Source of the DNA: a virus
Length of the DNA stretch: 22,751 nucleotides
Direction: 5' to 3' (one strand)
IMG/VR virus record: IMGVR_UViG_3300008470_000308
Coordinates: 1-22,751 of that record
Positions 2,020-22,751 of this stretch are shown piece by piece; position 1 is the first letter of the stretch, and each line of letters starts with the position of its first letter. The position numbers and the translations under genes are program-made. The notes beneath the pieces were generated by a model. That model was not told the origin of the DNA. It did not search any database and saw nothing but the letters and a program-made list of their open reading frames with translations.

Positions 2020-2052
2020 GGACTAACGATTAACTGAGAGGAGGTTAATATC

Positions 2053-2547: not shown

Positions 2548-2564
2548 CTTGAAAGGAGGCTATT

Positions 2565-3059: not shown

Positions 3060-3067
3060 CCTAATCT

Positions 3068-3091: not shown

Positions 3092-3107
3092 TATTAAGGA
3101 GTTTATC

Positions 3108-3302
3108 ATGTTTCAAGAAGACAAAGCTGAAGTCAAACAAATGATATCTGAGGCCATTGCTGGGATAAAAATACCGGAGGTGAAAGAGGTTCCTGTATTT
3201 GATGATTCTGGCCTGAAGAGAGAAATTGCCAAGTTGAAAGACGAAATAATTTCTCTTGATGCCAAAATCATAAAGGCAAAGCCTAAGAAGATAGGAGGCT
3301 AA
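3108..3302 (+). CDS. Small charged coiled-coil protein
   Basis: This 64-residue protein starts at ATG 3108, preceded by AAGGAG (3096-3101). An upstream in-frame TTG at 3081 lies inside the stem-loop and has no SD, so it is rejected. The sequence is highly charged. The second half (LKREIAKLKDEIISLDAKI) has heptad spacing of Leu/Ile and is likely a short coiled coil, and the C-terminus is Lys-rich. It lies between two pairs of duplicated structural genes. No family was recognised; an oligomerising accessory or minor head protein is possible. Confidence 0.6.
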   Translation: MFQEDKAEVKQMISEAIAGIKIPEVKEVPVFDDSGLKREIAKLKDEIISLDAKIIKAKPKKIGG

Positions 3303-3304
3303 TA

Positions 3305-3835
3305 ATGGGAAATTACAATCAATCAATGAGAAACAGTATCGGAGACGTTAACCGGGGCATTCTGGTTGAGACAGGCGACCTGCTTAGTACATCATACCAT
3401 ATTCAGGGGCAGGTCAATATCTTTACTGTTTACAATCGAATAATCGTCTATGGTCTTTGGGGTGAGGTGGTTCTCGCGGATCTTATTGGTGTTGGCTGTT
3501 TGCATCAATTCAACTGGACGTCCACAATTCCGGTGATTACAGTGCAACCTCTCTGTGCGGTTTCGACTGACATTACCGCGCTTGTGGTTGGCAACCGATT
3601 AACATTGCCGGGTGATGATTCCGGTACAGCATGCGCAATAACATATCTTGAGGGGATTTCATATTATGATCCCACACCGATGATTATCGGAAATTCTCGG
3701 TCATCTGCCGGTGTTGAAAGCTATGGAGTTATTGGTGAGTTGACCACAGTCGCAGACCTCACCGCTGGATCAATAAGATATTCAATCTTATACGTACCGC
3801 TTGACCACGATGCGTATGTTGAAGCGTTACTCTAA
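3305..3835 (+). CDS. Structural protein of unknown function, copy A of a second tandem pair
   Basis: This 176-residue beta-rich protein is paralogous to the following 171-residue protein. Shared features in order are a short charged N-terminus, (I/M)xVET at about 19-23, the FTVYNRI(I/L)V block at about 39-48, F-x-WTS with P-x-ITVQ at about 69-81, P-MI(I/M)GN at about 128-133, and a closing LYVPLD or LYIPID. Start ATG 3305 is two bases after the preceding TAA, with AGGAGG inside the end of the previous gene. No signal peptide or membrane span is seen. It is probably a virion component such as decoration or a small spike. No family was recognised. Confidence 0.72.
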   Translation: MGNYNQSMRNSIGDVNRGILVETGDLLSTSYHIQGQVNIFTVYNRIIVYGLWGEVVLADLIGVGCLHQFNWTSTIPVITVQPLCAVSTDITALVVGNRLTLPGDDSGTACAITYLEGISYYDPTPMIIGNSRSSAGVESYGVIGELTTVADLTAGSIRYSILYVPLDHDAYVEALL

Positions 3836-3853
3836 GAAAGGAGGACTGAAAAA

Positions 3854-4369
3854 ATGAACGAATCTACACGTACTATGATTAGAGACATGAAAGCTGGCAT
3901 GTTCGTTGAAACCAATGTCCTGCTTGGGACGGCGTATTTAGCAACGGCACAGGTCGAGCTTTTCACGGTTTACAATCGGATACTGGTTATGGGTCTGTTT
4001 TTTGAGGTCACTACATTGTGGGCCGGAGCGACGACCCTGAAATTTACATGGACATCTTCGGAACCAACAATAACGGTACAGGATATTTGCGCTTACGGCG
4101 GCAGCATGGATACTTTTGTTGCAGGGGCACGGTGTTATATGGTTGGCGACGCTTATGATACTGTTGCCAATGTTGAGGAAAGCGCCGGGATAACTCCTTT
4201 CGATGCTCTTCCTATGATGCTTGGAAATGCTCCGACTCTGGCAGGGGTGACGAGTGTGGGCACAATTGGTCAGGACAGCGGAGTTGCCGGAACTGGAGTT
4301 TCCGCCGGTAAATTCGGACTGCTTTATATTCCGATTGATCCAGGCTCTCGTGCCGTAGCACTCATGTAG
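3854..4369 (+). CDS. Structural protein of unknown function, copy B of a second tandem pair
   Basis: This 171-residue paralogue of the gene at 3305 shares FTVYNRILVMGL, FTWTSSEPTITVQDIC, PMMLGN and LLYIPID. Start ATG 3854 has AAAGGAGG upstream. The TAG stop (4367-4369) overlaps the SD of the next gene, and the downstream 62-residue gene is in the same frame. If this amber were read through, the two proteins would be fused. It is most likely a structural protein, with function unknown. Confidence 0.72.
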   Translation: MNESTRTMIRDMKAGMFVETNVLLGTAYLATAQVELFTVYNRILVMGLFFEVTTLWAGATTLKFTWTSSEPTITVQDICAYGGSMDTFVAGARCYMVGDAYDTVANVEESAGITPFDALPMMLGNAPTLAGVTSVGTIGQDSGVAGTGVSAGKFGLLYIPIDPGSRAVALM

Positions 4370-4378
4370 GAGGCTATT

Positions 4379-4567
4379 ATGACTGTACGATTAGTCACAA
4401 CTATACAACGCTGGATAGGCGAATCGGGTGATACAAAGCCGGAGAATCCCCCAGTAGGTTCAACCTTTTACGAACTCGATGTAGGTCAGTCTTTCATCTA
4501 CAACGGGTCTGAATGGGTTGAAGACATCTCAATGATTTACGCCATGACACAGGCGTTAGCAGAATAG
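4379..4567 (+). CDS. Small structural protein with a GSTFYE-type fibre motif
   Basis: This 62-residue protein contains PPVGSTFYELDVGQSFIYNG followed by SEWVE. The pattern Gly-Ser-Thr-aromatic-x-x-Asp, aromatic, Asn-Gly-x-x-Trp is common in small phage tail fibre or decoration proteins, where it forms a short beta-hairpin unit. Start ATG has an overlapping TAG/SD (TAGGAGG). It is in frame with the gene before it. Specific function is unknown; a small virion or fibre-attachment protein is likely. Confidence 0.6.
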   Translation: MTVRLVTTIQRWIGESGDTKPENPPVGSTFYELDVGQSFIYNGSEWVEDISMIYAMTQALAE

Positions 4568-4578
4568 GAGGTCTTAAA

Positions 4579-5196
4579 ATGAAAGCAGAAGGAAGAGTAG
4601 GGGCGATAAGCGGGAATTCTGGTTCCGTTAATCCGCTTAGAACCGATGCAAGGGGGCAGCTTGCAGTAGCCCTTAGTGGCGACTATAAAGACGCTACACT
4701 TGCCGGGAATCAGTATTTCGCATATTGTGGGGTACAGGATGTTGCATTGTACACAGCAACCTCAGCGATAGGGATGATTGTTTATAATCCTACTGGCAGT
4801 GGTGTCAATCTGGTCTGGAATAAATGGAATGTGATGGTTTCGATAACTTCAGCGGCAATGACCGGGATGGTGCTTGCTATTTCGGCGCAGGCTGCAACTC
4901 CGGGGACTACTACGGCGGCGACATTGACCGGAAAATCACTTTTGACCGGATCGACTGGGTTAAGTACTGGATCGGCGATAGCTTATTCCGTTGCGACGAT
5001 TACAACGGCTCCGGTAGTCTTTTGTCCATTGTTCCAAGATGCTGTCGCTGCTGCTTCTCTTGGTGGATTTGTTACCAATGGTGATCTTCAGGGAGCCTTC
5101 GCGTCTGCACCGGGGACTGTAACGGTAATGGGTGCGTTTGCTGCGGCTGGCGTTGATGTTGACATGACCCTTTGCTGGGAAGAGGTCCCAGTTTAG
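4579..5196 (+). CDS. Ala/Thr/Gly-rich virion-type protein
   Basis: This 205-residue protein starts at ATG 4579 with AGGAGG at about 4567. The N-terminal segment (RTDARGQLAVALSGDYKDATLAGNQYFAYCG) is followed by a long low-charge region rich in Ala, Thr, Gly and Ser with alternating hydrophobics, typical of a beta-sandwich structural protein. No enzyme motif, signal peptide or membrane helix was found. The gene ends TAG-TCC-TAA, a tandem stop, and is followed by a strong stem-loop. Its place in the head-adjacent cassette suggests decoration or fibre. Family not recognised. Confidence 0.65.
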   Translation: MKAEGRVGAISGNSGSVNPLRTDARGQLAVALSGDYKDATLAGNQYFAYCGVQDVALYTATSAIGMIVYNPTGSGVNLVWNKWNVMVSITSAAMTGMVLAISAQAATPGTTTAATLTGKSLLTGSTGLSTGSAIAYSVATITTAPVVFCPLFQDAVAAASLGGFVTNGDLQGAFASAPGTVTVMGAFAAAGVDVDMTLCWEEVPV

Positions 5197-5202
5197 TCCT
5201 AA

Positions 5203-5226
5203 TGGGGTGGGTTTAGGCTCACCCCA
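5203..5226 (+). other. Intergenic stem-loop, same design as the one at 3068
   Basis: TGGGGTGGG (5203-5211) pairs with CTCACCCCA (5218-5226) over 9 bp with one G-U wobble and the 6-base loop TTTAGG. The SD of the next gene (GGAGG) follows at once. There is no T-run. Geometry matches the 3068-3091 hairpin although the sequence differs. Confidence 0.65.
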
Positions 5227-5237
5227 CGGAGGAAATT

Positions 5238-6077
5238 ATGCCACACAAAGTTGACATGAGGTGGGTTGATAAGGACGGGTTTGAACATGGCTTTTATCGG
5301 GCTAATGGAAAGCCTCGTGTTTCGTCTACACCTTACTTATATGATATTGCAGAGGGTAATATTGAAGGCCGTTCACCGTGGACGAAGATTGGTTACAATT
5401 CAGAGATAAGCACAACCGAAGAATGTGTCTGGCCGGCTGGTGATGCGTATGTGTTTCCAACCGCTGAAGCGGGCATGGAGGTTGTGAGTACGAGTGTCGA
5501 AGACGACATTTTGACAGTTGCCCCAGCCCCAGGAACTGGCGTTCACAAGATAATGATCTACTACCTCAATGGGAACTATGAAGAGAAAACCACGGAAGTA
5601 ACTCTGAATGGACAAGCAGTAGTTGCCACAACCGCGACTGACATTTTCAGGATCAATGCTGTCCGGGTAATTGAGGCAGGAACTGGTGGTTGCGCTGCAG
5701 GTGCAATAAATGTCAGGAACTTAGCTGATACTCCAATTTATACCCAGATAGCAGCAGGCCACACGAGGGCAAGAGCATGTGTTTATACTGTTCCGATTAA
5801 CAAGACTCTGTACATTACCAGCCTATTTTTCTCCTCTACATCATCGGCAGGTAAAAACACTATCTTTACGACAAGGGCAAACCTAAACGACTTAACTGGC
5901 CAACAGGGAACTATTTTCTTTCCATTTCACGAGGTCGGGATAGAGGACGGGTCAACAAGGATCGAGCTTGAGATACCAACACGGCTGCCATCCATGACAG
6001 ATTTGCTCGTGGTTGGAAAGGGAACTGGAGTGGCAGTGTGTACGTGTGCATTAAGAGGATGGGAAGAGGCAGTCTAA
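5238..6077 (+). CDS. Virion structural protein, likely decoration or fibre type
   Basis: This 279-residue protein starts at ATG 5238 with CGGAGG upstream. Its pattern is one I associate with a widespread but uncharacterised phage structural protein: GYNSEISTTEECVWPAGDAYVFPTAEAGMEVVS, then IMIYYLNGNYEEKTTEVTLN, INAVRVIEAG, IYTQIAAGHTRARACVYTVP and NKTLYITSLFFS. Alternating hydrophobic residues suggest jelly-roll or beta-sandwich folds. There is no catalytic motif. It is followed by the most GC-rich stem-loop in the window. The virion role is inferred from context and composition. Confidence 0.65.
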   Translation: MPHKVDMRWVDKDGFEHGFYRANGKPRVSSTPYLYDIAEGNIEGRSPWTKIGYNSEISTTEECVWPAGDAYVFPTAEAGMEVVSTSVEDDILTVAPAPGTGVHKIMIYYLNGNYEEKTTEVTLNGQAVVATTATDIFRINAVRVIEAGTGGCAAGAINVRNLADTPIYTQIAAGHTRARACVYTVPINKTLYITSLFFSSTSSAGKNTIFTTRANLNDLTGQQGTIFFPFHEVGIEDGSTRIELEIPTRLPSMTDLLVVGKGTGVAVCTCALRGWEEAV

Positions 6078-6082
6078 TCCCC

Positions 6083-6120
6083 GGTGGAGGGGGGTTTTCC
6101 TCTCCTTCCCCCTCTCCACC
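6083..6120 (+). other. Long GC-rich intergenic stem-loop
   Basis: GGTGGAG (6083-6089) pairs with CTCCACC (6114-6120), and GGGGG (6090-6094) pairs with CCCCC (6108-6112). This gives 12 bp with a single bulged T at 6113 and a 13-base pyrimidine-rich loop. No T-run follows; the downstream sequence is ACACAAAAAA. It is the third hairpin found between structural genes in this cassette. Confidence 0.65.
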
Positions 6121-6145
6121 ACACAAAAAAGGCAAGGAGGCCAAA

Positions 6146-6514
6146 ATGAAGAAGCTAATTATACTTTTAATCGTACTTTTCGCAAGCATGTCTTATGCGG
6201 CAGATAAATCGGTAACATTGCAATGGGAACAGGAAGCCGCAGATCTTCCGTACATCACCGGTTGGGAGGTGAGCTACAGTGTTGACAATCAGGATACATG
6301 GACATCATTCCCGCCTATTCCCTATACTGATCAGCAGGATACATACCAGGCTGATGAGATGGTTATTGTCTCCGACACTGGATTCACGGAGGTGTTCTTC
6401 CGTGCAAGGACACTTGCTGAAAACAACAATCACAGTGATTACTGTGCTGCAATCGGCAAGGCTTTCGGCAAGGCGACAAAGGTAATTAATTTTAAATTTA
6501 AGGTGGTTGAATAG
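6146..6514 (+). CDS. Secreted Fn3-like domain protein
   Basis: This 122-residue protein starts at ATG 6146 with AAGGAGG seven bases upstream. An in-frame extension to 6038 crosses the hairpin and the previous gene and is rejected. Residues 1-18 (MKKLIILLIVLFASMSYA) form a textbook signal peptide: two Lys, a hydrophobic core, and a signal-peptidase-I-like S-Y-A before ADK. The mature part (SVTLQWEQ, GWEVSYSVDNQDTW, EVFFRARTLAENN) reads like one fibronectin type III or Ig-like beta-sandwich. A Sec signal is odd for a virion protein, which assembles in the cytoplasm. It might be an envelope-located exclusion or lysis factor. It overlaps the next gene by one base. Confidence 0.7.
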   Translation: MKKLIILLIVLFASMSYAADKSVTLQWEQEAADLPYITGWEVSYSVDNQDTWTSFPPIPYTDQQDTYQADEMVIVSDTGFTEVFFRARTLAENNNHSDYCAAIGKAFGKATKVINFKFKVVE

Positions 6515-6762
6515 TGGCAGAACAAAAAATGACAGGTGTACTCGATACTGATTGCCGATTTACCGTTTATTATGACGATGAGAAGAAAGTCGTTACTGGG
6601 TACAAAATCGAAAACAAGACGAAGCAGAGATGTATAGTTGAGTTTAAAGAGCCGTACAAGGAACTGTCAGAAGTAAAGGAATCAGTAATAACAACGAAAA
6701 CGATAGACTTAAAGATTCAGCCAGCATTTACCACATCAAGAGATGGAAGGTGTCAGTTTTAG
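6514..6762 (+). CDS. Small protein of unknown function
   Basis: This 82-residue protein begins at GTG 6514, sharing one base with the TAG stop of the secreted protein. That coupling suggests co-translation. Residues 5-60 form alternating charged and hydrophobic strands (GVLDTDCRFTVYYDDEKKVVTGYKIEN). There is no Sec signal or membrane helix. No family was recognised; it may partner the preceding Fn3-like protein. Confidence 0.5.
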   Translation: MAEQKMTGVLDTDCRFTVYYDDEKKVVTGYKIENKTKQRCIVEFKEPYKELSEVKESVITTKTIDLKIQPAFTTSRDGRCQF

Positions 6763-6781
6763 CATCTCACTGGGGAATTAA

Positions 6782-7486
6782 ATGGCAATAGCATTAAAAG
6801 ACGGTTTTCCTATTCACAAAGCTGCGTGGCACGCAACGGTGATAGCATCCGATGCTTTCGCTGTGACATCGGGAGAATTGATTGTTGTCGTTGCAAATGT
6901 GAATGCAGGGGATACGATTGCATCTATTGCTGATACGGAGGGAAACACCTATTCCACGCCGAGGCGGTATGGAAGCACATCCAAGGCTATTACCTTATGC
7001 TGGGCACAGTCTAAGGGAACTGAGGCAAATAATGTTGTTACAGTGACAATGGATGCCTCGGGAACCGCCGAATGGAAACTGCTCACTATATATGTTGCAA
7101 CGCCGGATTCGGGAGAAACACTGTCAGAAGATGGCTATGCAGGGGCATATGCAGCATGGCAAACATCACATTCATCCGGGAATTTCACCACAGCGGGAAC
7201 CGATGTTTTTTCTGTAGCCGGGGCAAGTCCGAATTCTGCTACTCCAACATGGTCATCTCAGGTTATCGGTGCGGATTCGGACGGTACAAGCCAAAATACA
7301 GGCGGCACACACATCGAAACATGGCACAAGATTTTCGCATCGGCTCAGACTGATATTGCAGCGGAAGCAACAAGCAGTGCAGGCTGCGATGCTGCCATTG
7401 CCGTTATTGCGGTAAAGTCTGTGGCAGCAGGTGGTGGTTTATTAATACCAGTAGCACAATATTACCATAACCAAGCGAGGACATAA
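6782..7486 (+). CDS. Fibre-type beta-rich protein
   Basis: This 234-residue protein starts at ATG 6782 with a weak purine-rich SD (GGGGA). Residues 10-115 look like an Ig-like or jelly-roll domain: repeated V-x-V-x-V strands, ITLCWAQSKGTEANNVVTVTM and WKLLTIYVATP. Residues 115-215 are rich in Ser, Thr, Gly and Ala. The end (GGGLLIPVAQYYHNQART) resembles the short hydrophobic/aromatic C-termini of phage fibre and decoration proteins. It overlaps the next gene by one base (TAATG). Virion surface or fibre protein is the likely role; exact function unknown. Confidence 0.6.
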   Translation: MAIALKDGFPIHKAAWHATVIASDAFAVTSGELIVVVANVNAGDTIASIADTEGNTYSTPRRYGSTSKAITLCWAQSKGTEANNVVTVTMDASGTAEWKLLTIYVATPDSGETLSEDGYAGAYAAWQTSHSSGNFTTAGTDVFSVAGASPNSATPTWSSQVIGADSDGTSQNTGGTHIETWHKIFASAQTDIAAEATSSAGCDAAIAVIAVKSVAAGGGLLIPVAQYYHNQART

Positions 7487-8481
7487 TGAGCTACGAACTG
7501 AAAACAAATACAGCGGTAAGGTTAGCAGTTGGGCCTTTAGTTGATCCTGGGGATGGGAAAACGGCGGAAACGTCCCTCACCGTTACTGCTCTGCTTGTCC
7601 AGATTTACCGCATTCAGAATGATGGTAATGCGGTTGTCAGGGCAGCATTCAATCCGACAACCGATAGCGGTGATAACGACATGGTGCTGGTTACATCATC
7701 AACTGACGGTATGTACGATTTAGAGATAACTGCCGCTCAGATCAACTGGCTTGGGAACGGACGAATTTCTTTTTATGACGTGGACGGGTTCTTAGTTCAT
7801 TACTTTGATATTCATGTGGTTTCAGCGGCATATTGGAATTGGAAGTACGCAACGACCATACCAGAGGTTAATGTTAAACAGTTATTAGGTACGGCATGGT
7901 TGGCTCCTGGAACAGCTGGAACGCCGGATGTCAATGCAAAACAGCTTGGTGGTACGGCACAAACGGGCAGAGATATTGGAGCGAGTGTTCTTCTTTCTAC
8001 TGGTTCAGGTGCGGGACAGCTTGACTTTACTTCGGGCGTGGTCAAATCCAACCTTGCACAGATACTTGGAACAGCATTGACTGAAACGGCTGGTTATATT
8101 GCGGCTGGATTCAAGAAACTGTTTAATGTTGAAACTCCGGTGCTTGTTGCTTCTGATGTTATGCGAGGAACGGATACTGGCCCCACGAAAGCAGAAATGG
8201 ATACAGCCCATGCACTATTAGCAACCCCGGCAAATGTAAATACACAGGTTCTTGATGTTCTAACCACGGATACATTTGCCGAACCTGGGACAGGCGCACC
8301 ACCCGCAACGGCAAGTATAGAAGAAAAGATAAGCTGGCTGTATGCTTTTCTCCGAAACAAGACACTAACTACTTCTAGTTTACTCACATTGAGAAATGAT
8401 GCGGATAATGCGGATATAGCGAAAGCTACGTTAAGTGATGATACAACCACTTTCAGTAAAGAGGAATTTGTGAGTGGCTAA
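7486..8481 (+). CDS. Multidomain tail/fibre-type structural protein
   Basis: This 331-residue protein opens with an all-beta domain (about residues 1-112). Its layout, AVGPLVDPGDGKTAETSLTV then GMYDLEITAAQINWLGNGRISFYD, is common in phage structural proteins. WNWKY (about 117-121) and low-complexity repeats containing VNVKQLLGTA and VNAKQLGGTA (about 128-160) follow. The C-terminal 75 residues contain EEKISWLYAFLRNKTLTTSSLLTLRNDADN and ATLSDDTTTFSKEEF, a module seen at the ends of fibre-like proteins, with a helix that may trimerise. It overlaps the next gene by 8 bases. A fibre or virion appendage role is likely. Confidence 0.65.
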   Translation: MSYELKTNTAVRLAVGPLVDPGDGKTAETSLTVTALLVQIYRIQNDGNAVVRAAFNPTTDSGDNDMVLVTSSTDGMYDLEITAAQINWLGNGRISFYDVDGFLVHYFDIHVVSAAYWNWKYATTIPEVNVKQLLGTAWLAPGTAGTPDVNAKQLGGTAQTGRDIGASVLLSTGSGAGQLDFTSGVVKSNLAQILGTALTETAGYIAAGFKKLFNVETPVLVASDVMRGTDTGPTKAEMDTAHALLATPANVNTQVLDVLTTDTFAEPGTGAPPATASIEEKISWLYAFLRNKTLTTSSLLTLRNDADNADIAKATLSDDTTTFSKEEFVSG

Positions 8482-9277
8482 CCTCGATTCAGAAAATAAA
8501 CGAAGGGCTGCTTTTAATTTACCGGGATATGTTATCAATCCTGTGGCAGATGGAACGATAGGGGATGCGGACAGAGTACAGGCATCGGGATGGTATAGCG
8601 GGATAGGCATAGGGGGGGCGGTATATGAAAAATCATTATCGGACACAATCAACCTATCCGATGCAATCGCACGGAGCATGGGTATCCCAAAATCTGACAC
8701 CATTAATTTATCAGATGGAATAGTTAAGGGTTTTGGGTTTCCACGGGCCGATTCTGTTTCCCTCTCCGATGCGATTGCAAAAGAATTTGGAGCTGTAAGG
8801 TCGGAGACAGTTACTCTATCAGACGGGGTTGCAAAGGCTCCGAACATAGCAAGATCGGATTCAATTACCTTATCTGATGGGATTGTTAAAACTGTGGGGA
8901 TGCCTAAAAGCGATACGATTACGCTTGCAGACAGTATCGTAAAGGCCATGAGTATAGATAAGGCAGATTCAATCACCTTATCTGATTTGCTTTCAAGGGA
9001 ATTCGGGTTGAATAAGGCCGATACTGTTTCAATGTCCGATGGAATTGCAAAAGGCTTTGGGTTGATCAGGTCTGATACGGTTACTTTGTCTGATTTGCTT
9101 TCAAAAGGTTTTGGTTTGAGCAAGACAGATATAGTTACCTTATCTGACAGTATTGCAAAAGAATTTGGCTTAACTAAATCTGATACGATTACCTTAACAG
9201 ATTCCAACGACATATCAGGAATAGTCGGATTCATAATTGAACAACTTGGACTTCATTCATTACAGAATATATTTTAG
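8474..9277 (+). CDS. Protein built of eleven 18-residue tandem repeats
   Basis: This 267-residue protein starts at GTG 8474 inside the end of the previous gene. Residues 1-54 are a non-repeated head containing RRAAFNLPGYVINPVADGTI, which may anchor it to the virion. Residues 55-234 are ten full 18-residue units with consensus (K/R)SD(T/S)(I/V)TLSDGIAKGFGL, plus half a unit at 235-243. A short hydrophobic tail (ISGIVGFIIEQLGLHSLQNI) follows. Regular SDTITLSD strands alternating with IAKGFG turns suggest a beta-solenoid or fibrous rod. Context argues for an adhesin, fibre shaft or spacer. Units differ enough to be an old array. Function not known from sequence. Confidence 0.75.
   Translation: MANLDSENKRRAAFNLPGYVINPVADGTIGDADRVQASGWYSGIGIGGAVYEKSLSDTINLSDAIARSMGIPKSDTINLSDGIVKGFGFPRADSVSLSDAIAKEFGAVRSETVTLSDGVAKAPNIARSDSITLSDGIVKTVGMPKSDTITLADSIVKAMSIDKADSITLSDLLSREFGLNKADTVSMSDGIAKGFGLIRSDTVTLSDLLSKGFGLSKTDIVTLSDSIAKEFGLTKSDTITLTDSNDISGIVGFIIEQLGLHSLQNIF
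8636..9202 (+). repeat. 54-bp coding tandem repeat array, ten units plus a partial one
   Basis: The unit is 18 codons. Units begin at 8636 and every 54 bases up to 9122, with a partial unit from 9176. Units are degenerate at DNA level, and best conserved in the segment for SD(T/S)(I/V)TLSD. Copies 9 and 10 and copies 7 and 8 look closest to one another. The array is wholly inside the repeat-protein gene. Confidence 0.85.
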
Positions 9278-12738: not shown

Positions 12739-13034
12739 TGAATGAAGAGAGAGTTGACGAAATATGTGACCGATGCAAGGAACCAATTAATATCTTGGTA
12801 TCAGAATTTGAACGGGCAATGAAGGCCGGAGAACCGATTTTATGCCCTGATTGTTATTCTGAATATCTCGACGAAGAAACAGAGGAGTTACCACCGAATC
12901 GGTGCTTTGAATATAAGATAGAGGAGCTGGGCGGAATACAGCATCTTGCAGTATTAAATAAGGCCGGTTCAGAAGGATGGGAGCTTGTGTCAGTGGATGA
13001 TGGAAAAGCATACTTTAAGAGGAATAATCTATGA
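12738..13034 (+). CDS. Zinc-ribbon protein with C-terminal DUF4177-like domain
   Basis: In this 98-residue protein the first half has Cys10-x-x-Cys13 and Cys36-x-x-Cys39, a treble-clef or zinc-ribbon arrangement. Residues 57-95 (FEYKIEELGGIQHLAVLNKA, GSEGWELVSVDDGKAYFKR) match the short DUF4177 fold with the hallmark GWELVS. The combination in one chain is unusual. It is coupled to the tail terminator (TAATG) and to the glycosyltransferase-methyltransferase gene (ATGA). A role in that block is possible but not shown. Confidence 0.65.
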   Translation: MNEERVDEICDRCKEPINILVSEFERAMKAGEPILCPDCYSEYLDEETEELPPNRCFEYKIEELGGIQHLAVLNKAGSEGWELVSVDDGKAYFKRNNL

Positions 13035-14398
13035 TTTCTATAATAATCCCCGCCCTGAATCAGCTTGAAATGACGATGGGGTGCATGGAGGCAGTCGAAA
13101 AGACCACGGAGGACTACGAAATAATCATTGTTGACAATGGATCAAAGCCAGCCTTTGACAGCGTTCCATTCACGCCAAACGATAATGAGATACGCATTAT
13201 CCGGAATGAAGAAAACCTTGGTTTCCCAGTAGCAGTTAATCAGGGTATCAAAGCGGCAAAAGGGGACATTATTGTAATTATGAACAATGATGTGGTTTGT
13301 ACCCCTAACTGGCTTGAGACATTGCAAGGGCGGCTATCTGACGGGCTTGATATGGTAGGACCTGTCACTAATTCGATCTCCGGGCCCCAACAGGTATTGA
13401 TTGATAGTTACGACGATTTAACGGGCCTATATAAAGCCGCTGAAGACCATAAAAAGAAAAACGAGGGGCAATGGTCTCCTTTTCACAGGCTGGTTTTCTA
13501 CTGCGTGGCGATAAAAAGAGAAGTCATAGATAAGATCGGATTGCTTGACGAGATTTACACGCCGGGGAATTATGAGGATGACGATTACTGTATGAGGGCG
13601 ATTGATGCAGGTTTCAAATTAGGAGTTGCAAAAGATTGTTATGTTCATCATTTTGGGAGCGTAACACATAAGGCTATGGATATCGATTACAGGGAATTGC
13701 TTGCAAAAAATCAAAAGATATTCAACGAAAAATCGGCTGATAGATATAAGGAAATGATAAAGAAAAACAACCAGGATGGTAATGAGATTATTTTTACCGG
13801 TGAGCGGGCCATGCCTTTGGATTCCGGGACACCCCCTGATGTCATGGAAGAGCATTGGGCACGATATAAATATGCTATTCAGTTTGTGAAAGATAAGAAG
13901 GTTTTGGATGTGGCATGTGGGGCAGGATATGGAGCTGACCTGCTTTCTGAAACAGCCGAATCCGTAATAGGCGGGGATATCTCTCCCGAAACAATTGCTT
14001 ATTGTAGATTGCATTATCCGAACCCCGGCTTTTTCGTGTTTGATATTTGCGACATTCCATATCTTGAAAATTCATACGACATAATTGTTAGCTTTGAAAC
14101 TATCGAACATATTAAGGACGGGAGGTTGTTTCTCTCCGAGATTGTGCGGGTACTGAAAGAAGACGGGAAATTGATTATTTCTTGTCCTCTCGGCGGAAAC
14201 TGTGGCAACCCATATCATCTAATATATTACCAGAAGGGAACCTTTGAGCTTGTCTTGAAGAAATACTTTGATGGGGTAAAAATGCTCTACCAGAGAAAGG
14301 GGGAGTTTTTCGAGGATAGCATATCCCCTGAATATCACGAAACTTTTACAGGTGAATATGCGATGGCAATTTGCAGCAAACCAAAGGAGGTATCATGA
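13031..14398 (+). CDS. Glycosyltransferase family 2 fused to SAM-dependent methyltransferase
   Basis: This 455-residue bifunctional enzyme starts with a GT-A domain, about residues 1-240: SIIIPALNQ, IIIVDNGS (nucleotide site), NLGFPVAVNQGIKAAKGDII, NND at 85-87 as the metal-binding DxD equivalent, ED(D) at 183-185 as likely catalytic base, and HHFGSVT. After a lysine-rich linker (235-250), residues 285-400 form a class I methyltransferase: KVLDVACGAGYGADLL (motif I), GGDISPETIAYC, FDICDIPYLENSYDIIVSFETIEHI (motifs II/III) and a VLKEDGKLIISC strand. It would transfer a nucleotide sugar and methylate a sugar or partner substrate. Substrates cannot be read. Lying between terminator and tube genes, it may modify the virion. 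Confidence 0.88.
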   Translation: MISIIIPALNQLEMTMGCMEAVEKTTEDYEIIIVDNGSKPAFDSVPFTPNDNEIRIIRNEENLGFPVAVNQGIKAAKGDIIVIMNNDVVCTPNWLETLQGRLSDGLDMVGPVTNSISGPQQVLIDSYDDLTGLYKAAEDHKKKNEGQWSPFHRLVFYCVAIKREVIDKIGLLDEIYTPGNYEDDDYCMRAIDAGFKLGVAKDCYVHHFGSVTHKAMDIDYRELLAKNQKIFNEKSADRYKEMIKKNNQDGNEIIFTGERAMPLDSGTPPDVMEEHWARYKYAIQFVKDKKVLDVACGAGYGADLLSETAESVIGGDISPETIAYCRLHYPNPGFFVFDICDIPYLENSYDIIVSFETIEHIKDGRLFLSEIVRVLKEDGKLIISCPLGGNCGNPYHLIYYQKGTFELVLKKYFDGVKMLYQRKGEFFEDSISPEYHETFTGEYAMAICSKPKEVS

Positions 14399-15223: not shown

Positions 15224-15711
15224 AATGTCAACCAAATCAGGAAGAATAGCAGGCGTTAAACTGGGAGCAACAGCAATCGCAGGTCAGGGTACGTGGTCCT
15301 TCGGGGGGTTCACCCGTGAGATAATTGAGGAAGATTCTTGGGATATCGATATCAAGAAGAAATACTTTGGTGTGGGTGATGCAGGAACGTTGTCATTTTC
15401 GGGTCTTTACGATGCCCAGGCTACCACGTTTACTACTGGACAGAATGCTATCAATTCGGCGTGTATTAACTCCTCAGCCTTTGAGGGCGGGAATGTTTCT
15501 ACAGCCACATTAAACTTCTTTATTGATAACACATCTTACTGGACTGCGACTACCGGTGGAGAGATTCTCATCACAAAATGCCAAGCTATTACTATGGATA
15601 AATCAGGGATGGGAACCATTGACTTTGAGGCAGTTATTTCCGGTGGCGTAATGATACTTATATAAAATCTAATGGAGGTGTAAAATGTCAACCAAATCAG
15701 GAAGAATAGCA
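15214..15711 (+). repeat. Direct repeats between the two tail tube genes, offset 460 bp
   Basis: A 38-base block at 15214-15251, covering SD, start and first codons, recurs exactly at 15674-15711. A second 40-base block at 15322-15361 recurs exactly at 15782-15821. Both have the same 460-base offset, so they mark one tandem duplication. Sequence between and after these blocks has diverged. Confidence 0.9.
15225..15665 (+). CDS. Major tail tube protein, copy A
   Basis: This 146-residue protein is likely a tail tube subunit of the siphophage type. It has the pattern GQGTWSFGGFTREIIEEDSWDI, GDAGTLSFSGLYDAQ, FIDNTSYW, ILITKCQAITMDKSGMGTIDFEA and an ending in GG-V-M-I-L. The start, with GGAGGTG nine bases upstream, is identical to that of copy B. 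Copy A differs from copy B in the loop after FSGLYD, where it has an added Thr-rich stretch. Two tube-type proteins in tandem may mean one forms the tube and the other a decorated or terminal ring. Confidence 0.8.
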   Translation: MSTKSGRIAGVKLGATAIAGQGTWSFGGFTREIIEEDSWDIDIKKKYFGVGDAGTLSFSGLYDAQATTFTTGQNAINSACINSSAFEGGNVSTATLNFFIDNTSYWTATTGGEILITKCQAITMDKSGMGTIDFEAVISGGVMILI

Positions 15712-16101
15712 AGCGTTTATCTTGGGGCTGCAAAAGTCGCAGGTCAGGGCACGTGGACCCTCGGGGGTTTTACCCGTGAAGTAATTGAGGAAGATTCTTG
15801 GGATATCGATATCAAGAAGAAGCATTTCAGCGTGGGTGATGCGGGGACATTGACTTTTTCAGGTCTTTACGATCCTGACGATGATGATGGGCAGACATTA
15901 TTGAACTCTGCATGTAACAATTCATCGGTGCTTATAAGTAATGTATTGAAGTTATACATTGATGCTGCATCATATTGGACTAACACGACAGGACACAGCA
16001 TCCTCATCACGAAATCTCAGAGTGTCATGATGGAAAAATCCGCAATGGGAACGATTGACTTTGAAGGAGTAGTGAGTGCAGGAGCGATGGTGCTTGTATA
16101 A
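15685..16101 (+). CDS. Major tail tube protein, copy B
   Basis: This 138-residue paralogue of the preceding gene has the same ordered motifs: GQGTWTLGGFTREVIEEDSW, DAGTLTFSGLYDPDDDDGQT, LYIDAASYW, ILITKSQSVMMEKSAMGTIDFEG, ending GAMVLV. The DNA around the start and around codons 33-46 is identical to copy A while the rest has diverged. That pattern suggests gene conversion or selection on those segments. The acidic DPDDDDGQ loop differs from copy A. Its position immediately before the assembly chaperones suggests it may be the main tube protein. Confidence 0.82.
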   Translation: MSTKSGRIASVYLGAAKVAGQGTWTLGGFTREVIEEDSWDIDIKKKHFSVGDAGTLTFSGLYDPDDDDGQTLLNSACNNSSVLISNVLKLYIDAASYWTNTTGHSILITKSQSVMMEKSAMGTIDFEGVVSAGAMVLV

Positions 16102-16113: not shown

Positions 16114-16521
16114 ATGACAGTTTTAAATCTTGAAGAAAAAGATGGTGCATGGTTTGAGATGGACGGCGGGGGAAGAGTTGAACTTAGAACTCTCTCATAT
16201 GATGCCTTGAAAACAATCAACAAGAAAAGCATTCGGAAAAAAGTTGATTTTAAAAAGGTCGAAGGAACTCCAGGGCGATTTGAATATGAAGAAGTCAACG
16301 AAGACCTCCAGAACGAATTGTTCTGGGATCACTGTATCGTAGCATGGGAGAATCTTTTTGATGCGAAAGAAAAGGAAATCCCTTGCACAACTGAAAACAA
16401 GGTTTTGTTGATGTCCAGGTCTGCACAGTTTTCAAGGTTCGTTTCGGATTCACTTCAAACTCTCTCAGAAGACGAAGTAGATCAAGACAAGGTAATTGAA
16501 AAAAACTCCGAGACATCATAG
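16114..16521 (+). CDS. Tail assembly chaperone G (short, zero-frame product)
   Basis: This 135-residue protein corresponds in position and design to lambda gpG. It is made in large amounts to bind the tape measure and help the tube assemble, and is not in the final virion. It is mostly charged and helical: LEEKDGAWFEMDGGGRVELR, then KTINKKSIRKKVDFKKVEG, then NELFWDHCIVAWENLFDAKE. Start ATG 16114 has AAAGGAGG upstream. Near its 3' end lies the slippery heptamer A AAA AAC. Ribosomes that do not slip stop at TAG 16519-16521. Confidence 0.82.
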   Translation: MTVLNLEEKDGAWFEMDGGGRVELRTLSYDALKTINKKSIRKKVDFKKVEGTPGRFEYEEVNEDLQNELFWDHCIVAWENLFDAKEKEIPCTTENKVLLMSRSAQFSRFVSDSLQTLSEDEVDQDKVIEKNSETS

Positions 16522-16547
16522 AGTTTAATGAGCTCGGCTCTAAACTT
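16500..16547 (+). promoter_or_regulatory. Programmed -1 ribosomal frameshift signal
   Basis: The slippery heptamer A AAA AAC (16500-16506) lies exactly in register with the G frame. In the -1 frame a TGA at 16497-16499 blocks any earlier entry, and the G frame ends at TAG 16519, so the switch must occur in about 20 bases. Downstream, GAGTTTA (16521-16527) pairs with TAAACTT (16541-16547), and GAGC (16530-16533) pairs with GCTC (16537-16540). This gives an 11-bp hairpin with an AT bulge, 14 bases from the slip site. Confidence 0.85.
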
Positions 16548-16847
16548 GGATTTACGCCAAAGGAATATTGTGATGGATGTAAAGAACTCTATGGTGCACG
16601 GAATCCTCCAGAAGAACCGCCATGCGATACATGCAGGCCAAAATATATAGAAGAAAACGCCGATGCGATTATGATCTTCTACAAAGTGCAAAGGCAATTC
16701 ATAATGGGATTTGACGGGCCGATTGACATATCCCACGAGGCGATACACAGAGAGATGGAACTTTATAACATAAGCGATAAACAAAGTTGTTTCGATAAGG
16801 TTTTAATAATGTCTCAAAGCTTTATCAACAGGATGAGGGAAAAATGA
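16506..16847 (+). CDS. T extension of the G-T tail chaperone, reached only by -1 frameshift
   Basis: Read in the -1 frame, this gives 113 residues after the slip site, making a G-T fusion of 244 residues. It opens with LRDIIEFNELGSKLGFTPKE and carries Cys22-x-x-Cys25 and Cys40-x-x-Cys43, a likely zinc ribbon. A helical region with IFYKVQRQFIMGF, ISHEAIHREMELYNI and LIMSQSFINRMREK follows. It has no believable start of its own in this frame. The end overlaps the next gene's ATG (ATGA). By analogy with lambda gpGT, the T part recruits tube subunits while G coats the tape measure. Confidence 0.85.
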   Translation, partial: LRDIIEFNELGSKLGFTPKEYCDGCKELYGARNPPEEPPCDTCRPKYIEENADAIMIFYKVQRQFIMGFDGPIDISHEAIHREMELYNISDKQSCFDKVLIMSQSFINRMREK

Positions 16848-17263
16848 GTCGAGTAGCTTTCTGGAATCCGAAGATAGCTGAAAAGGAAATTATGGGTAAT
16901 GCTATGGATCGTCTCATAGCCGCCGGTGAAGCCGTTGCTGAAAAGGCACGATCATTGTGCAAAGTTGGTACTATCTCAAGGCCGATGTATTCTAAAGGAA
17001 GATACGCGGGTCAATACTGGACAGCTAGGGATGCAGGGGCTTTAAAAAAGACTATCAGAGTTGTTACAAAGCATGGTGGAACCGGGCGCAATGTGTGGGT
17101 TATGGCTGGGACGAAAAAAGTTTACTACGCTCAGATCGTTGAATTTTATACGCCATTTTTAAGACCGGCACTAAACGGTTCAAAGGCTAAGATTAAAAGA
17201 ATTATACAGCAACCGACGATGGCCGGCGGCGGATCGTCTATTGCAATGGGAGGTAAATTCTAA
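16844..17263 (+). CDS. HK97 gp10-like minor tail/neck protein
   Basis: This 139-residue protein has a helical N-terminus (AMDRLIAAGEAVAEKARSL), then GTISRP, YWTARDAGALKKTIRVV, NVWVMAGTKKVYYAQIVEF and TPFLRPALNGSKAKIKRI. The Y-Y-A-x-I-V-E-F then PFLRPAL pattern is the HK97 gp10 signature. Such proteins are normally encoded before the tail terminator in the neck cluster, but here the gene lies after the chaperones, a displaced position. It overlaps the tape measure gene by one base (TAATG). Confidence 0.75.
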   Translation: MSRVAFWNPKIAEKEIMGNAMDRLIAAGEAVAEKARSLCKVGTISRPMYSKGRYAGQYWTARDAGALKKTIRVVTKHGGTGRNVWVMAGTKKVYYAQIVEFYTPFLRPALNGSKAKIKRIIQQPTMAGGGSSIAMGGKF

Positions 17264-18102
17264 TGGCAAAGAAGCCTGTTGGAAAAATCTTTGTCGAACT
17301 TGATCTTGATAAGACCAAGTATGAAGCCGGACTTGGAAAAGTAAAAGGCAAGGGCAAGAAGACCGCAACGGACATCGAAAAAGCTTGGAAGGTCATGGGC
17401 AAGAAGTCAGAGCAAACCTATGACCAAATGCGAGCCAATGTTAATAAGAATTATAATATAATCAAGAATCACGCCAAATCCACAGCCAATGATATTGTCA
17501 GAGCAGAGAGGGCAAAAGCTGCAAAGATCGCACGAATTAACGAGCAACAATTCGGGAAGCAAAAAAAACTAATAGACCAAGCCAAGCAACACTGGATGGC
17601 CTATGCCGCTGCTGTTGCTGGATTCATCATAGTGGGTAAAAAGATTCTCACGCTTTCAATGGAACAGGAGAAAGCACAGTGGGCTTTAAGGGCTGCACTT
17701 GTATCCAATAACGAATATACTAAAGAGACATTAAAAAGCTATACAGACTTTGCTTCTGCAATTCAAAAAGTAACGACCTTTGGCGATGAACAAGTCTTGA
17801 TGCTAATGGCTTTAATGAAAAACCTTGGTGTTCATAAAGACAAGCTAAAACTCGCAGCAGAACAGGCAATCGGTTTAGCTTCCGCAACAGGCAGAGGTGT
17901 AGAATCAATGGCTATGTATATTGCTCTTGCACATCAAGGGGAATTTACAATGCTCCGTAGATACATTCCGGCACTCAAAAAGACAACTGATGCTACTGAA
18001 CAGATGGCAATTATAACAGAGAAGACAGCACAGGGGTTTGTGTTTGCCAAGGAGATGGCCTTGACTTTTGGTGGTAGGCTAAAACAGCTTTCTAACTTGT
18101 AG
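17263..18102 (+). CDS. Tape measure protein, N-terminal part up to an in-frame TAG
   Basis: This 279-residue part of the tail length ruler begins MAKKPVGKIFVELDLDKTKY, a classic tape measure start (beta-strand then coiled coil). Residues 30-115 are highly charged and helical, a hydrophobic span follows at about 110-128 (WMAYAAAVAGFIIVGKKIL), then the typical helical region with FASAIQKVTTFGDEQVL and IGLASATGRGVESMAMYIALAHQGEF. The frame stops at TAG 18100-18102 after GGRLKQLSNL. Reading continues in the same frame with NDLHEGVGDAIVKNEAMVKL, which is how tape measures normally go on. So this is a broken or read-through gene, not a short protein. Confidence 0.85.
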   Translation: MAKKPVGKIFVELDLDKTKYEAGLGKVKGKGKKTATDIEKAWKVMGKKSEQTYDQMRANVNKNYNIIKNHAKSTANDIVRAERAKAAKIARINEQQFGKQKKLIDQAKQHWMAYAAAVAGFIIVGKKILTLSMEQEKAQWALRAALVSNNEYTKETLKSYTDFASAIQKVTTFGDEQVLMLMALMKNLGVHKDKLKLAAEQAIGLASATGRGVESMAMYIALAHQGEFTMLRRYIPALKKTTDATEQMAIITEKTAQGFVFAKEMALTFGGRLKQLSNL

Positions 18103-19329
18103 AATGATTTACATGAGGGGGTCGGTGATGCCATAGTCAAAAATGAAGCTATGGTAAAACTACTTGATGATGGCAAGAAGGTTATAACAGCATGGATTGA
18201 CCAGGTAGAACTATGGGTGAAACTCAATGATGAACTGATTGCTCAAAAAACTCATGAAGCAATAAACAAAATCAAATCATCATTAGAGGCAATTATAAAC
18301 ACATATAAAGCTTTGCCAGATGGTGTTATTGGCGCTGTTGGAACTGGAATACTCTTCAGGGTTTTAACTGGATCAACGCCAGTCGGGCGGGTTGTAACGA
18401 TATTAATGCTGGTCAACACGCAGCTTGAGAAAGCCGGCGTTAATATGAAAAAGATTGCTTCGGCCGCTGAAGTTGCTGTTAGTCCGTTAAGTCTTTTAAG
18501 GGGATTAATTCCCGAATCAGCTAAGCCGTCTTTCTTTCAAGGCGGGGTTCCCGGAACGATATCTGGCGCCGGAAGGGGGTTTCCAGCACTACCACCAAGG
18601 CCCGGAGTTCCAACAATGGCAGAACTGCCTGCTCCAGTCGAAGATCCCTCAGTTTTACGTCATAAAGAAATGGAAGATTTAAAACTTGGATACTTCATGG
18701 AGAATCAAAATTTAATACTTAAGGGTGTGGCTGATTATGAAACTTTAAAACTTCAAAAACAGAGAGATTCGCTTGCAAAAGAAAAGGCCATGCAACAGGC
18801 AAGAGTTGCAATGTACCAATCCGCCGCTGGTTCAATCGCAAATACCTTTCTTCGGATTGCACAAGCCGGAGGAAAGCAAAGTAAAAAGATGTTTGCAGTT
18901 TACAAAGCATTTGCGATGGTTGAGGCTGTCATTGCAGGGCACAGGGCTATTCTGCAAGCGATGGCGGCATACCCCCCGCCGTGGTCTTTTATCATGGCTG
19001 GGATAGCTGGCGCAGCGGCAGCGGTTCAGATTGCAATGATCTCCGCCGCCAAGCCACCTTCCTATGAAACTGGAACTGATTATGTCCCAGAAACGGGGTT
19101 AGCTTTATTGCATAAAGGGGAGAAGGTCACTCCGGCTGGAAGGAATAAAGGAGAGGGCAACACCTATATCACCGTCAAAATGGAAAATCCAGTCTTTCAG
19201 GATGTCGCAACACAGAGACAGGTTTTTGCACAGATCGCCGAGGTTATCGCTACACGGGTCGCACCCGGGGCAGTGGTTAATGATTATAGAAATGACGGAA
19301 TGACGAGACAGGTAATAGGGAGAGTATAA
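18103..19329 (+). CDS. Tape measure protein, C-terminal part after the in-frame TAG
   Basis: This is the same frame as the N-terminal part. The first Met codon is 18151, but no SD precedes it and NDLHEGVGDAIVKNE just upstream is evidently coding, so separate initiation is unlikely. The region contains charged helices, a proline-rich linker (PALPPRPGVPTMAELPAPVE), coiled-coil sequence (KLQKQRDSLAKEKAMQQARV), a hydrophobic segment (PWSFIMAGIAGAAAAVQIAM) and the typical tape measure ending ETGTDYVPETGLALLHKGEKV. The joined protein would be 688 codons; at the usual 1.5 angstrom per residue that means a tail near 100 nm. No lysozyme or peptidase domain was seen. Confidence 0.82.
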   Translation, partial: NDLHEGVGDAIVKNEAMVKLLDDGKKVITAWIDQVELWVKLNDELIAQKTHEAINKIKSSLEAIINTYKALPDGVIGAVGTGILFRVLTGSTPVGRVVTILMLVNTQLEKAGVNMKKIASAAEVAVSPLSLLRGLIPESAKPSFFQGGVPGTISGAGRGFPALPPRPGVPTMAELPAPVEDPSVLRHKEMEDLKLGYFMENQNLILKGVADYETLKLQKQRDSLAKEKAMQQARVAMYQSAAGSIANTFLRIAQAGGKQSKKMFAVYKAFAMVEAVIAGHRAILQAMAAYPPPWSFIMAGIAGAAAAVQIAMISAAKPPSYETGTDYVPETGLALLHKGEKVTPAGRNKGEGNTYITVKMENPVFQDVATQRQVFAQIAEVIATRVAPGAVVNDYRNDGMTRQVIGRV

Positions 19330-19694: not shown

Positions 19695-20144
19695 ATGCCA
19701 AAGAGCCTTGAAGCAGCAGTAATAACGGAAATGAATTTGGCGCAAAAAAGACCCTGTCTCTTGTTTGAGTTGGGCCTTTCTACTACTCTTCGATTTGCGG
19801 CCTATATGACTAATGTTACATTTCCTACTGGTGGTAAGGTCTACACCGCCAAGGCGATTACAGGCGCGGATGTAGCGCAGTCCATGGAAGGGCAAATCCA
19901 AAGAGTAACGGTTAATTTTGATAATGTCTCAAAGGATATTGCGGCGTATGCGGCTGCACAGGCCTTCCGTGGAGTATCGTTAGTTATTAAACGAGTCTAT
20001 CTTGACGCTCTGGGATCGGCAGACAATTACAATGAAGTCTTTAACGGTCATTTTGAAAAGCCAAAGTTCTCCCGCAAATGGATGACAGTTACGGCTACTT
20101 CGGGGAAAGGCCTTGATCGGAAGATACTTAACTTTCCCTACTAG
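19695..20144 (+). CDS. gpL-like / DUF2163 tail tip protein, N-terminal part up to an in-frame TAG
   Basis: This 149-residue part starts at ATG 19695 with AAGGA upstream. The layout (SLEAAVITEMNLAQKRPCLLFELGL, YTAKAITGADVAQSMEGQIQRVTVNFDN, VSLVIKRVYLD, VFNGHFEKPKFSRKWMTVTATSG) fits the gpL or DUF2163 barrel domain that sits at the tail tip. It ends FPY then TAG then RMCPLEFGGTEC in the same frame. In related proteins as I recall them this junction reads Y-Q-R-x-C, so the TAG replaces an expected glutamine. The gene is therefore interrupted by one codon only. Confidence 0.82.
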   Translation: MPKSLEAAVITEMNLAQKRPCLLFELGLSTTLRFAAYMTNVTFPTGGKVYTAKAITGADVAQSMEGQIQRVTVNFDNVSKDIAAYAAAQAFRGVSLVIKRVYLDALGSADNYNEVFNGHFEKPKFSRKWMTVTATSGKGLDRKILNFPY

Positions 20145-20552
20145 AGAATGTGTCCTTTGGAATTCGGGGGGACGGAATGTAACACAAATGGACTGGCAGA
20201 CTTAACTTCCCTCACGGCTGCCGGAACGGCGGACTCAGGTTCAACAACTACGCTGGTTGATAATGCCCTTACTCAAGTGGATGATTATTGGAATCACGGT
20301 AAAATTAAAATAACTAAGGCCACGGTCGATTACTGGAGGGTTGTCAAAGACTTTGTAGCCGGGACGGATACCGTAACTCTGGATGTGGCCATGCCATTTG
20401 CTATCGACACAGATTGTACTTATGTAATTTTTAAGGGTTGCGATAAAACTTGGGATGTGTGCGGTGGCGGAAGTGCGTGGGGGCCGAGTGGAAACAATCA
20501 GGCTAACTTTGGTGGATGTATTCATGTTAGCAAAAAGGCGGATGCGGGGTAG
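20145..20552 (+). CDS. gpL-like tail tip protein, C-terminal iron-sulfur domain after the in-frame TAG
   Basis: This is in the same frame as 19695. The first ATG (20148) has no SD. Counting from 19695 with the TAG as residue 150, Cys153 and Cys162 are 9 apart and Cys249 and Cys256 are 7 apart. These are the same spacings as the four cysteines that hold the [4Fe-4S] cluster in lambda gpL. Between the pairs is an 80-residue beta insert (STTTLVDNALTQVDDYWNHG to TYVIFKGCDK), longer than in lambda. The end GNNQANFGGCIHV is typical. Separation from the N-terminal half would leave the cluster domain without its barrel, arguing that both are made as one chain. Confidence 0.8.
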   Translation, partial: RMCPLEFGGTECNTNGLADLTSLTAAGTADSGSTTTLVDNALTQVDDYWNHGKIKITKATVDYWRVVKDFVAGTDTVTLDVAMPFAIDTDCTYVIFKGCDKTWDVCGGGSAWGPSGNNQANFGGCIHVSKKADAG

Positions 20553-20937: not shown

Positions 20938-22751
20938 ATGGGTTTCTTTTCGGGCATAGTAGGCGGCGTAATAGGTTTTTTTGTTGGTGGTCCGGTAGGT
21001 GCCGCTGTTGGTTTTTATGTCGGATATGACATTTCGACTGAAGGCGGTTTAATTGATATCTATGAAGAAGATATTATTGAATCTTTTTTGTATGATATTC
21101 CAGAAATGGGAGACTCTCCAACCTACGCATCAAACCAAATGGGAGACTCTCCAACCTACGCATCAAACCAAATCGGTAACACTATTTCAGAGGGGATCTT
21201 CGCTTCACGATGTTACGGGCAATGTAAAATCGGAGGCAATAAATTAAGATTCAATGCTGCGGATGATACAGATTTAAGGCTGATTGTCTCTCATTGTTTG
21301 GGGCCGGCTGGAGGTATTACTGAATGGTATGCTAATGATATAGCGTGGGGGGATCTGACAGGGACCCACACAAAAACCGAATACACTGGGACATGGACAC
21401 AGACCGCCGACGCAAGGTTTTCTTCACGAGAATGTGCTTATCGGGGCCGGGCTTACACAGCTTTCACCTTTGAGAAAGATGATAAGCAGATAGGCCATGA
21501 TCCCAATATTACGATTATCATGCAGGGGCTTTTATGTAAGCCATTAGCGAGTGATACTCCTGCCTTCACACGTAATAATGCGGTTGCTTTGTACGACTTT
21601 TATCTTAATGTTGAAGGCAGGGCAGCCGGAGTTTTAGACCTCAATTCGTTTAAATCGTTAGAAGCGCTTTGTAACGAAGTCCCCGCCGGATCATCTTTAC
21701 CAAGATACAGGTTCGATTTCAACTTTGACACGAATATGACCATTAATGATGCCAAGAAGTTACTTTGGAAATCGTTTAACGGTCAGGTCATAATGTCCCA
21801 GGGGAAGTATAAGTGTGTCTGGGATTCATCACAGATGGCGGATGGATCCGGAGGGCTTACCACAAAGACCGTTTCACATGCCTTCGATGAGGACAATATT
21901 GTTAAAGGTTCTTTAACCTGGAGCCAGCCAGAGTCACCAAATATCGTAAGAATTCATTATGTTGATTCCGCAAACTCTTATCAGAAAACTTCCGTAGAAG
22001 TCAGAGATGAAAACGATATTGATATAAATGGTGAAATTCTCTATGAAGAGACCTGTTATTATATTACAGATGCTGAACTTGCCAGACGCAGGGCAAAGTT
22101 TAAATTTAACAAATTCAAATATGAAGATTATCATTGTCAGCTTCAGGGATTCTCGGATTCAGGAGACCTTGAAATTTTCGACCTTGTAACGGTAACCCAT
22201 ACCCTCCCGGGTTGGACAACAAAACAATTCTTGGTTGCTTCAAAAGCCGATACTCCCAATGGGCAGCCTAAATTCACCTTGAGGGCTTATTATTCCGGCG
22301 TTTACGATGACGCACAGGTTGGAACACAGCCGGGGTATGAATCAATTTTGCCGAACCCATATCAAGTTCCGGCGGCTTCAACTGGAATCTCCGCAGCAAT
22401 GACCGCAGTGGGGACGGCCTATGATTTTGATGCGGTCAGGGTTTCGTTTTCCCCTCCGGCTACCGATCCATTTTATTCTTATTCGGAAATTTATGCTTCC
22501 AATGATGATGCGACTTATTATTACGTTGGTAGGGACGGGACCGGGACCTTTACTTTTAACGCCCTTGGTGTAATCTATGAGCCGGGCGATACTTGTTATA
22601 TCAAGATCCGTTCTGTTTCGACAATGGCGATCCCGGAAGACTTGCCAGCGGTGGCGAGTACGTCCGTTCTTGTTTCCTCGACAATGCGATTGGGTGGGTT
22701 TTACGCAGGTTTAACTTTCTTTGGGGATAATGCTGTTGCCAATGATGCCAA
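20938..22751 (+). CDS. Tail hub / tip protein, gpJ-like, 3' end missing
   Basis: The frame runs open from ATG 20938 to the window end (604 codons). Residues 2-32 are glycine-rich and hydrophobic (GFFSGIVGGVIGFFVGGPVGAAVGFYVG), as at the start of many tip hub proteins. Residues 57-78 are two exact copies of MGDSPTYASNQ. The barrel-like body follows, with ASRCYGQCKIGGNKLRF, SLEALCNEVPAGSSLPRYRF and MTINDAKKLLWKSFNGQVIM. Then come the DEDNIVKGSLTWSQPESPNIVRIHY region, DLEIFDLVTVTHTLPGW and an Fn3-like repeat region from about residue 480. This is the receptor-side hub at the tail end, and its C-terminus should carry host specificity. No in-frame TAG occurs in the visible part. Confidence 0.85.
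   Translation, partial: MGFFSGIVGGVIGFFVGGPVGAAVGFYVGYDISTEGGLIDIYEEDIIESFLYDIPEMGDSPTYASNQMGDSPTYASNQIGNTISEGIFASRCYGQCKIGGNKLRFNAADDTDLRLIVSHCLGPAGGITEWYANDIAWGDLTGTHTKTEYTGTWTQTADARFSSRECAYRGRAYTAFTFEKDDKQIGHDPNITIIMQGLLCKPLASDTPAFTRNNAVALYDFYLNVEGRAAGVLDLNSFKSLEALCNEVPAGSSLPRYRFDFNFDTNMTINDAKKLLWKSFNGQVIMSQGKYKCVWDSSQMADGSGGLTTKTVSHAFDEDNIVKGSLTWSQPESPNIVRIHYVDSANSYQKTSVEVRDENDIDINGEILYEETCYYITDAELARRRAKFKFNKFKYEDYHCQLQGFSDSGDLEIFDLVTVTHTLPGWTTKQFLVASKADTPNGQPKFTLRAYYSGVYDDAQVGTQPGYESILPNPYQVPAASTGISAAMTAVGTAYDFDAVRVSFSPPATDPFYSYSEIYASNDDATYYYVGRDGTGTFTFNALGVIYEPGDTCYIKIRSVSTMAIPEDLPAVASTSVLVSSTMRLGGFYAGLTFFGDNAVANDA
21106..21171 (+). repeat. Perfect 33-bp tandem duplication in the hub gene
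   Basis: Bases 21106-21138 are repeated exactly at 21139-21171 and keep the frame, duplicating the 11 residues MGDSPTYASNQ. The lack of any mismatch implies a very recent event or an assembly artefact. Confidence 0.9.

Follow-up and report, generated by a model that had tools for sequence, protein, structure and literature searches.

We identified two in-frame TAG codons in tail genes of a lambda-like siphovirus, one in the gpL-like tail hub gene (positions 20142 to 20144) and one in the tape measure gene (18100 to 18102), each at a site where relatives encode an amino acid. We favor the reading that a phage using the standard code acquired amber mutations recently and that this copy of its genome is defective or a minority form, and we give it close to an even chance. 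Overall, recent loss or sequence error fits the observations somewhat better than does suppression of the stops.

Genome fragment and gene content

The window, by which we mean the whole stretch of DNA analyzed, is an IMG/VR virus record of 22751 bases and represents a fragment of a genome. It carries the structural genes of a lambda-like siphovirus. We find genes for a ClpP-type head protease, an HK97-type capsid protein, head-tail connectors, a tail terminator, a tail chaperone with a -1 frameshift site, a tape measure protein, a gpL-like hub and a gpJ-like fibre, as well as a distal-tail-like gene that was placed from gene order only. The succession of tape measure, distal tail protein, hub and central fibre is common to the window and lambda-type phages. 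An exact search that allowed any base at codon position 1 returned no near-identical contigs, and may have left out very near records. A scan of genome contigs gave four weak matches, none of which points to a host. Among isolate phages there was one weak partial match to the hub gene and one to the central fibre, and the capsid protein found distant matches only.

The interrupted hub gene

Read through its TAG, the hub gene occupies positions 19695 to 20552 (plus strand) and encodes a phrog_778 tail assembly protein with the hub fold of lambda gpL and of RcGTA. The TAG is codon 150. It shares the frame of the ATG at 19695, and this frame remains open on to the TAG at 20550-20552. The original prediction, which was made from the DNA alone, held that coding sense continues on both sides of the stop, and full-length relatives indeed align across it unbroken at 63-79% identity. 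It also expected glutamine here, within a motif Y-Q-R-x-C in relatives. Alignment of the homologues at codon 150 bears this out, as the codon is CAG or CAA in 17 of the 17 most similar loci (63-79% identity), a set that includes near-duplicates and thus fewer than 17 distinct phages. A change from CAG to TAG is a single transition, as had been pointed out. Scans of viral contigs yielded about 50 hub homologues; the more distant ones mostly have Gln at this codon and otherwise Glu, Ser, Thr, Gly, Lys or Asp, and none of the approximately 50 has a stop there. None of the close relatives is split into a protein that ends at this point and a separate downstream protein, the arrangement that the prediction had named as the contrary case. 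The in-frame ATG at 20148 starts three bases past the stop and corresponds to Met151, which is present in most close relatives; we found no properly spaced Shine-Dalgarno sequence for it, in agreement with the earlier reading that this ATG lacks a ribosome binding site. No RNA structure was found downstream of the hub TAG (z -0.26).

The open reading frame that ends at the TAG (19695 to 20144, plus strand) encodes 149 amino acids, and the downstream half (20145 to 20552, plus strand) carries the pattern of FeS ligands together with an inserted PF09356-like domain. As predicted, the two downstream cysteine pairs have gpL-like spacings of 9 (C153/C162) and 7 (C249/C256), and all four cysteines are invariant in 33 homologues. 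The FeS ligands of lambda gpL are Cys173, Cys182, Cys205 and Cys212, with the same pair spacings (PMC10721106). C153, C162, C249 and C256 correspond to these residues and are putative [4Fe-4S] ligands. The interval between the two pairs is unlike that of lambda, owing to the insertion of a PF09356-like beta domain some 70 residues long.

A structure model of the hub protein has a pLDDT of 67 overall and of 70-83 across most of residues 21-140, and Foldseek matched it to the hub proteins of JBD30, Chi, RcGTA, R4C and lambda. Whole-chain superpositions had an rmsd of about 20, with the two halves loosely placed, and we relied only on alignments of the first domain (rmsd about 3). VIA-align of lambda 8iyk_L with the model gave a Z of 13.4 over 135 residues, within residues 1-139. 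At the level of the predicted structure, these matches confirm the fold of the gpL-like hub N-terminal domain (HDI); the hub family profile had no matches among PDB sequences. Residues 139-155 form a low-confidence linker between this domain and the FeS half. The TAG falls in the linker, and the 149-residue frame therefore comprises the complete first domain. The window thus shares the first-domain fold and the FeS cysteine spacings of 9 and 7 with the phrog_778 hubs of lambda (gpL), RcGTA (gp13), JBD30 and Chi, but differs from lambda-type hubs in its interdomain TAG and in a longer FeS half with the PF09356-like insert.

A second TAG in the tape measure gene

When all genes were translated with TAG as a sense codon, the in-frame TAG at 18100-18102 came to light, which the original prediction had missed. 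This TAG is codon 280 of a tape measure gene that, read through, has 688 codons (17263 to 19329, plus strand). The gene is contiguous in the related loci L002, L008 and L009, whose proteins continue through codon 280 uninterrupted (58-64% identity); the codon is TGG (Trp) in L008/L026 and L009, and TTT (Phe) in L002. The RNA structure score for this TAG is z -2.25, with a hairpin from about 24 nucleotides downstream. Termination at the TAG would leave 279 of 688 residues and remove 60% of the protein, including its C-terminal end. In lambda, the C-terminal helix of the tape measure protein sits in the tail tip (PMC10721106). Such a stop should be lethal.

Across the 7139 codons of the window, the hub and tape measure TAGs are the only internal stops; neither TAA nor TGA occurs internally. 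Neither TAG was found in any relative, and no convincing internal stop was found elsewhere in 102 related loci (about 326,000 aligned codons, many of them from near-duplicate loci). The underlying all-against-all count was filtered against antisense frames, and the remaining candidates were dismissed by eye as antisense frames, high-GC artefacts or gene boundaries. Two internal TAGs here, against none convincing in about 100 related loci, exceed chance, and the two probably share a cause or circumstance. In L021, what looked like a TAG within the capsid gene is the stop of an upstream frame. A possible third case in the window, the TAG at 16519-16521, proved to be where the gpG-like tail chaperone gene (16114 to 16521) normally terminates; this gene has a conserved continuation in the -1 frame (approximately 16515-16844). 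The slippery sequence AAAAAAC lies just ahead of this stop, at 16500-16506, and is the usual programmed frameshift site of this gene. Frameshifts were absent from those window genes that have homologues in the related loci.

Genetic code

We considered reassignment of TAG across the genome. TAG terminates 11 of the 33 window genes, one of them the major capsid gene (at 2017). Among close relatives it ends a smaller share of genes (12 of 113; p 0.005). At 682, 4367 and 4565, in the sequence TAGGAGG, the TAG stop overlaps or abuts the ribosome binding site of the next gene. With TAG read as sense, coding density goes from 0.955 to just 0.957; under code 4 or with TAA reassigned it drops, and both of these codes were rejected. 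A rise of 5-10% is the criterion used for calling recoded phages (PMC10879173). We found no tRNA genes in the window, itself a fragment, and none in four larger relatives of 28-47 kb that were covered whole or nearly so; in the other related loci scanned, tRNA genes were found only in L019 (Arg) and L021 (Met). The residue expected also differs between the sites, Gln in the hub and Trp or Phe in the tape measure protein. The usual test for genuine readthrough, as distinct from a pseudogene or an error, is whether different species share the stop (PMC1914089). Under this test for evolved readthrough or a stop-coded amino acid, the in-frame stops are unconserved among the relatives. Genome-wide TAG reassignment is disfavored because of the 11 TAG terminators, the flat coding density, the lack of any suppressor tRNA among the genes found, the absence of either TAG from relatives and the differing residues.

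Reassignment of TAG to glutamine in the style of crAss-like phages (code 15) is accordingly highly improbable. The window resembles code 15 phages in that the TAGs lie in late structural genes, where such phages carry recoded TAGs (PMC9523058, PMC10879173), and in that Gln is expected at one site, the hub. It is unlike them in having two internal TAGs only, together with common TAG terminators, a density gain of 0.2 points, no suppressor tRNA seen and no recoded relative.

The TAG terminators are concentrated on the left of the window, where they end 9 of the 15 genes in positions 1-9277 as opposed to 2 of the 18 farther right (p 0.008). This cluster possibly marks a mosaic junction.

Selection on the hub gene and origin of the stops

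Comparison with L002 downstream of the hub TAG gives 58 codons with synonymous differences only and 19 with non-synonymous differences. With L008 as the outgroup, the window and L002 each have six private amino acid changes in this half. Both halves of the gene were under purifying selection until recent times, with no sign of relaxation, and any untranslated period would, as a rough bound, be less than about 5-10% of the branch. It follows that the stop arose recently or that the downstream half continues to be translated. Given CAG and TGG ancestors, the hub and tape measure TAGs would each have arisen by one C:G to T:A transition. Such transitions are the commonest kind of nonsense mutation. 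The probability that two random nonsense changes both yield TAG is 0.12-0.25, and the restriction to TAG is therefore weak evidence for suppression.

Given these observations, we suggest that a lambda-like siphovirus using the standard bacterial code gained two recent ambers, at 18100 in the tape measure gene and at 20142 in the hub gene. Translation would end at both TAGs in this genome copy, leaving 279 of 688 residues of the tape measure protein and, as the first domain, 149 of 285 residues of the hub protein. The contig would then stem from a phage that is defective, makes up a minority or is rescued by complementation. Comparable genes in the rest of the window are intact. The window resembles classical phage amber mutants in its single transitions to TAG, in the essential tail genes affected and in an otherwise intact phage, but it is an uncultured contig with no known permissive host. 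Several observations speak against recent ambers. Two TAGs in adjacent late genes, with no break by frameshift, TAA or TGA, are not what a decaying prophage usually looks like, and the signature of such decay (frameshifts, deletions and mixed stop codons) is absent, the frameshift check being limited to genes with homologues in the related loci. In addition, broken genes are rare in records of this kind, as about 100 related loci have no convincing internal stop. A decaying prophage is also not specifically indicated, because the near relatives have no tyrosine integrase.

Alternatively, the ambers may be suppressed by a UAG-reading tRNA (a Gln- or Trp-type suppressor, or tRNA-Pyl) that comes from the host or from phage sequence outside the window, in which case partial readthrough would suffice. 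We regard this as possible, although well short of an even chance. Both internal stops are TAG, the comparable genes are otherwise intact and purifying selection persists downstream of the hub stop. In both genes the base after the TAG is A, and a following A is a context that favors amber suppression. Demand for the hub is also low, at three copies per virion in lambda and in Shigella phage Sf11 (PMC10721106, PMC12724387). On the other hand, strong suppression would act on the 11 genes that end in TAG, with products such as a fusion of head protease and capsid protein; no tRNA gene was seen in the window, the four larger relatives or most other related loci; and the two sites call for different residues. 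We consider it doubtful, although conceivable, that a Gram-negative host decodes UAG part-time, as a natural suppressor or a pyrrolysine user, so that sporadic ambers are tolerated in low-copy tail proteins while TAG serves as a terminator elsewhere. An error of sequencing or assembly, in which one or both TAGs are C:G to T:A miscalls in a low-depth contig, is unlikely. The data come from a single contig for which no near-identical record was found, and both differences are of the kind expected from a deaminated or damaged template, but approximately 35 genes show no frameshift or other break and two independent miscalls would both have had to yield TAG.

The original prediction offered suppression or recoding, or a recently killed gene. 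That frame was right, but its two halves are unequal, with genome-wide recoding disfavored, and it missed the option that the first domain functions by itself. Under this option, the 149-residue hub works and the FeS half is lost, or is reinitiated at the ATG at 20148. The stop indeed lies in the 139-155 linker after a complete first domain, and the ATG is near enough to it for reinitiation. There is also a natural precedent in Sf11, whose gp16 (hub-1) has 156 amino acids, is present in three copies per virion and was identified by mass spectrometry (PMC12724387). Its structure (9occ_F) matches residues 4-137 of our hub model with a Z of 12.2, and no FeS half follows the hub-1 gene in the Sf11 genome (MF158038). 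Thus gp16, like the 149-residue frame of the window, consists of the first domain alone and is of similar length. The existence of such a hub means that the hub TAG by itself need not kill the phage. However, the FeS half that is missing entirely from Sf11 is present in the window, in frame and conserved, still under purifying selection and with its four cysteines kept. Moreover, the hub genes of close relatives are never split, the ATG at 20148 is simply the Met151 codon of the relatives and has no ribosome binding site, and the tape measure TAG, with 60% of that protein lost, is left unexplained. We therefore judge functional truncation or gene fission to be very unlikely.

Should both TAGs be fixed in a viable phage, the window would exemplify natural, sporadic suppression of ambers in an uncultured phage and would point to a UAG-reading host. 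Otherwise it serves as a warning that recoding is not shown by a pair of in-frame TAGs in essential genes, even with a perfect match to Gln at one of them and with intact surroundings. The comparison with Sf11 indicates that a stop at this site of the hub need not be lethal and that the first domain can be the entire hub protein.

Additional features of the window and of Sf11

Three pairs of similar neighboring structural genes are candidates for tandem duplication (2053-3059, 3305-4369 and 15225-16101); the related locus L016 also has two copies of the first two kinds. Inside the tail gene block, positions 13031-14398 encode a family 2 glycosyltransferase fused to a methyltransferase domain. 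The gene at 8474-9277 encodes a protein of repeats of the type (S/A)DSITLSD-G/A-I-AK-FGL-K, and its opposite strand is open over nearly the full length. A perfect 33-base tandem repeat lies in frame at 21104-21173, near the start of the gpJ-like gene, and encodes MGDSPTYASNQ twice. In the Sf11 genome (MF158038; L111:12934-13431, minus strand), we noted an unannotated open reading frame between the two hub genes, where the record has a small gp15 on the opposite strand. By eye, the product of this frame looks like a gpK-type NlpC/P60 protein.
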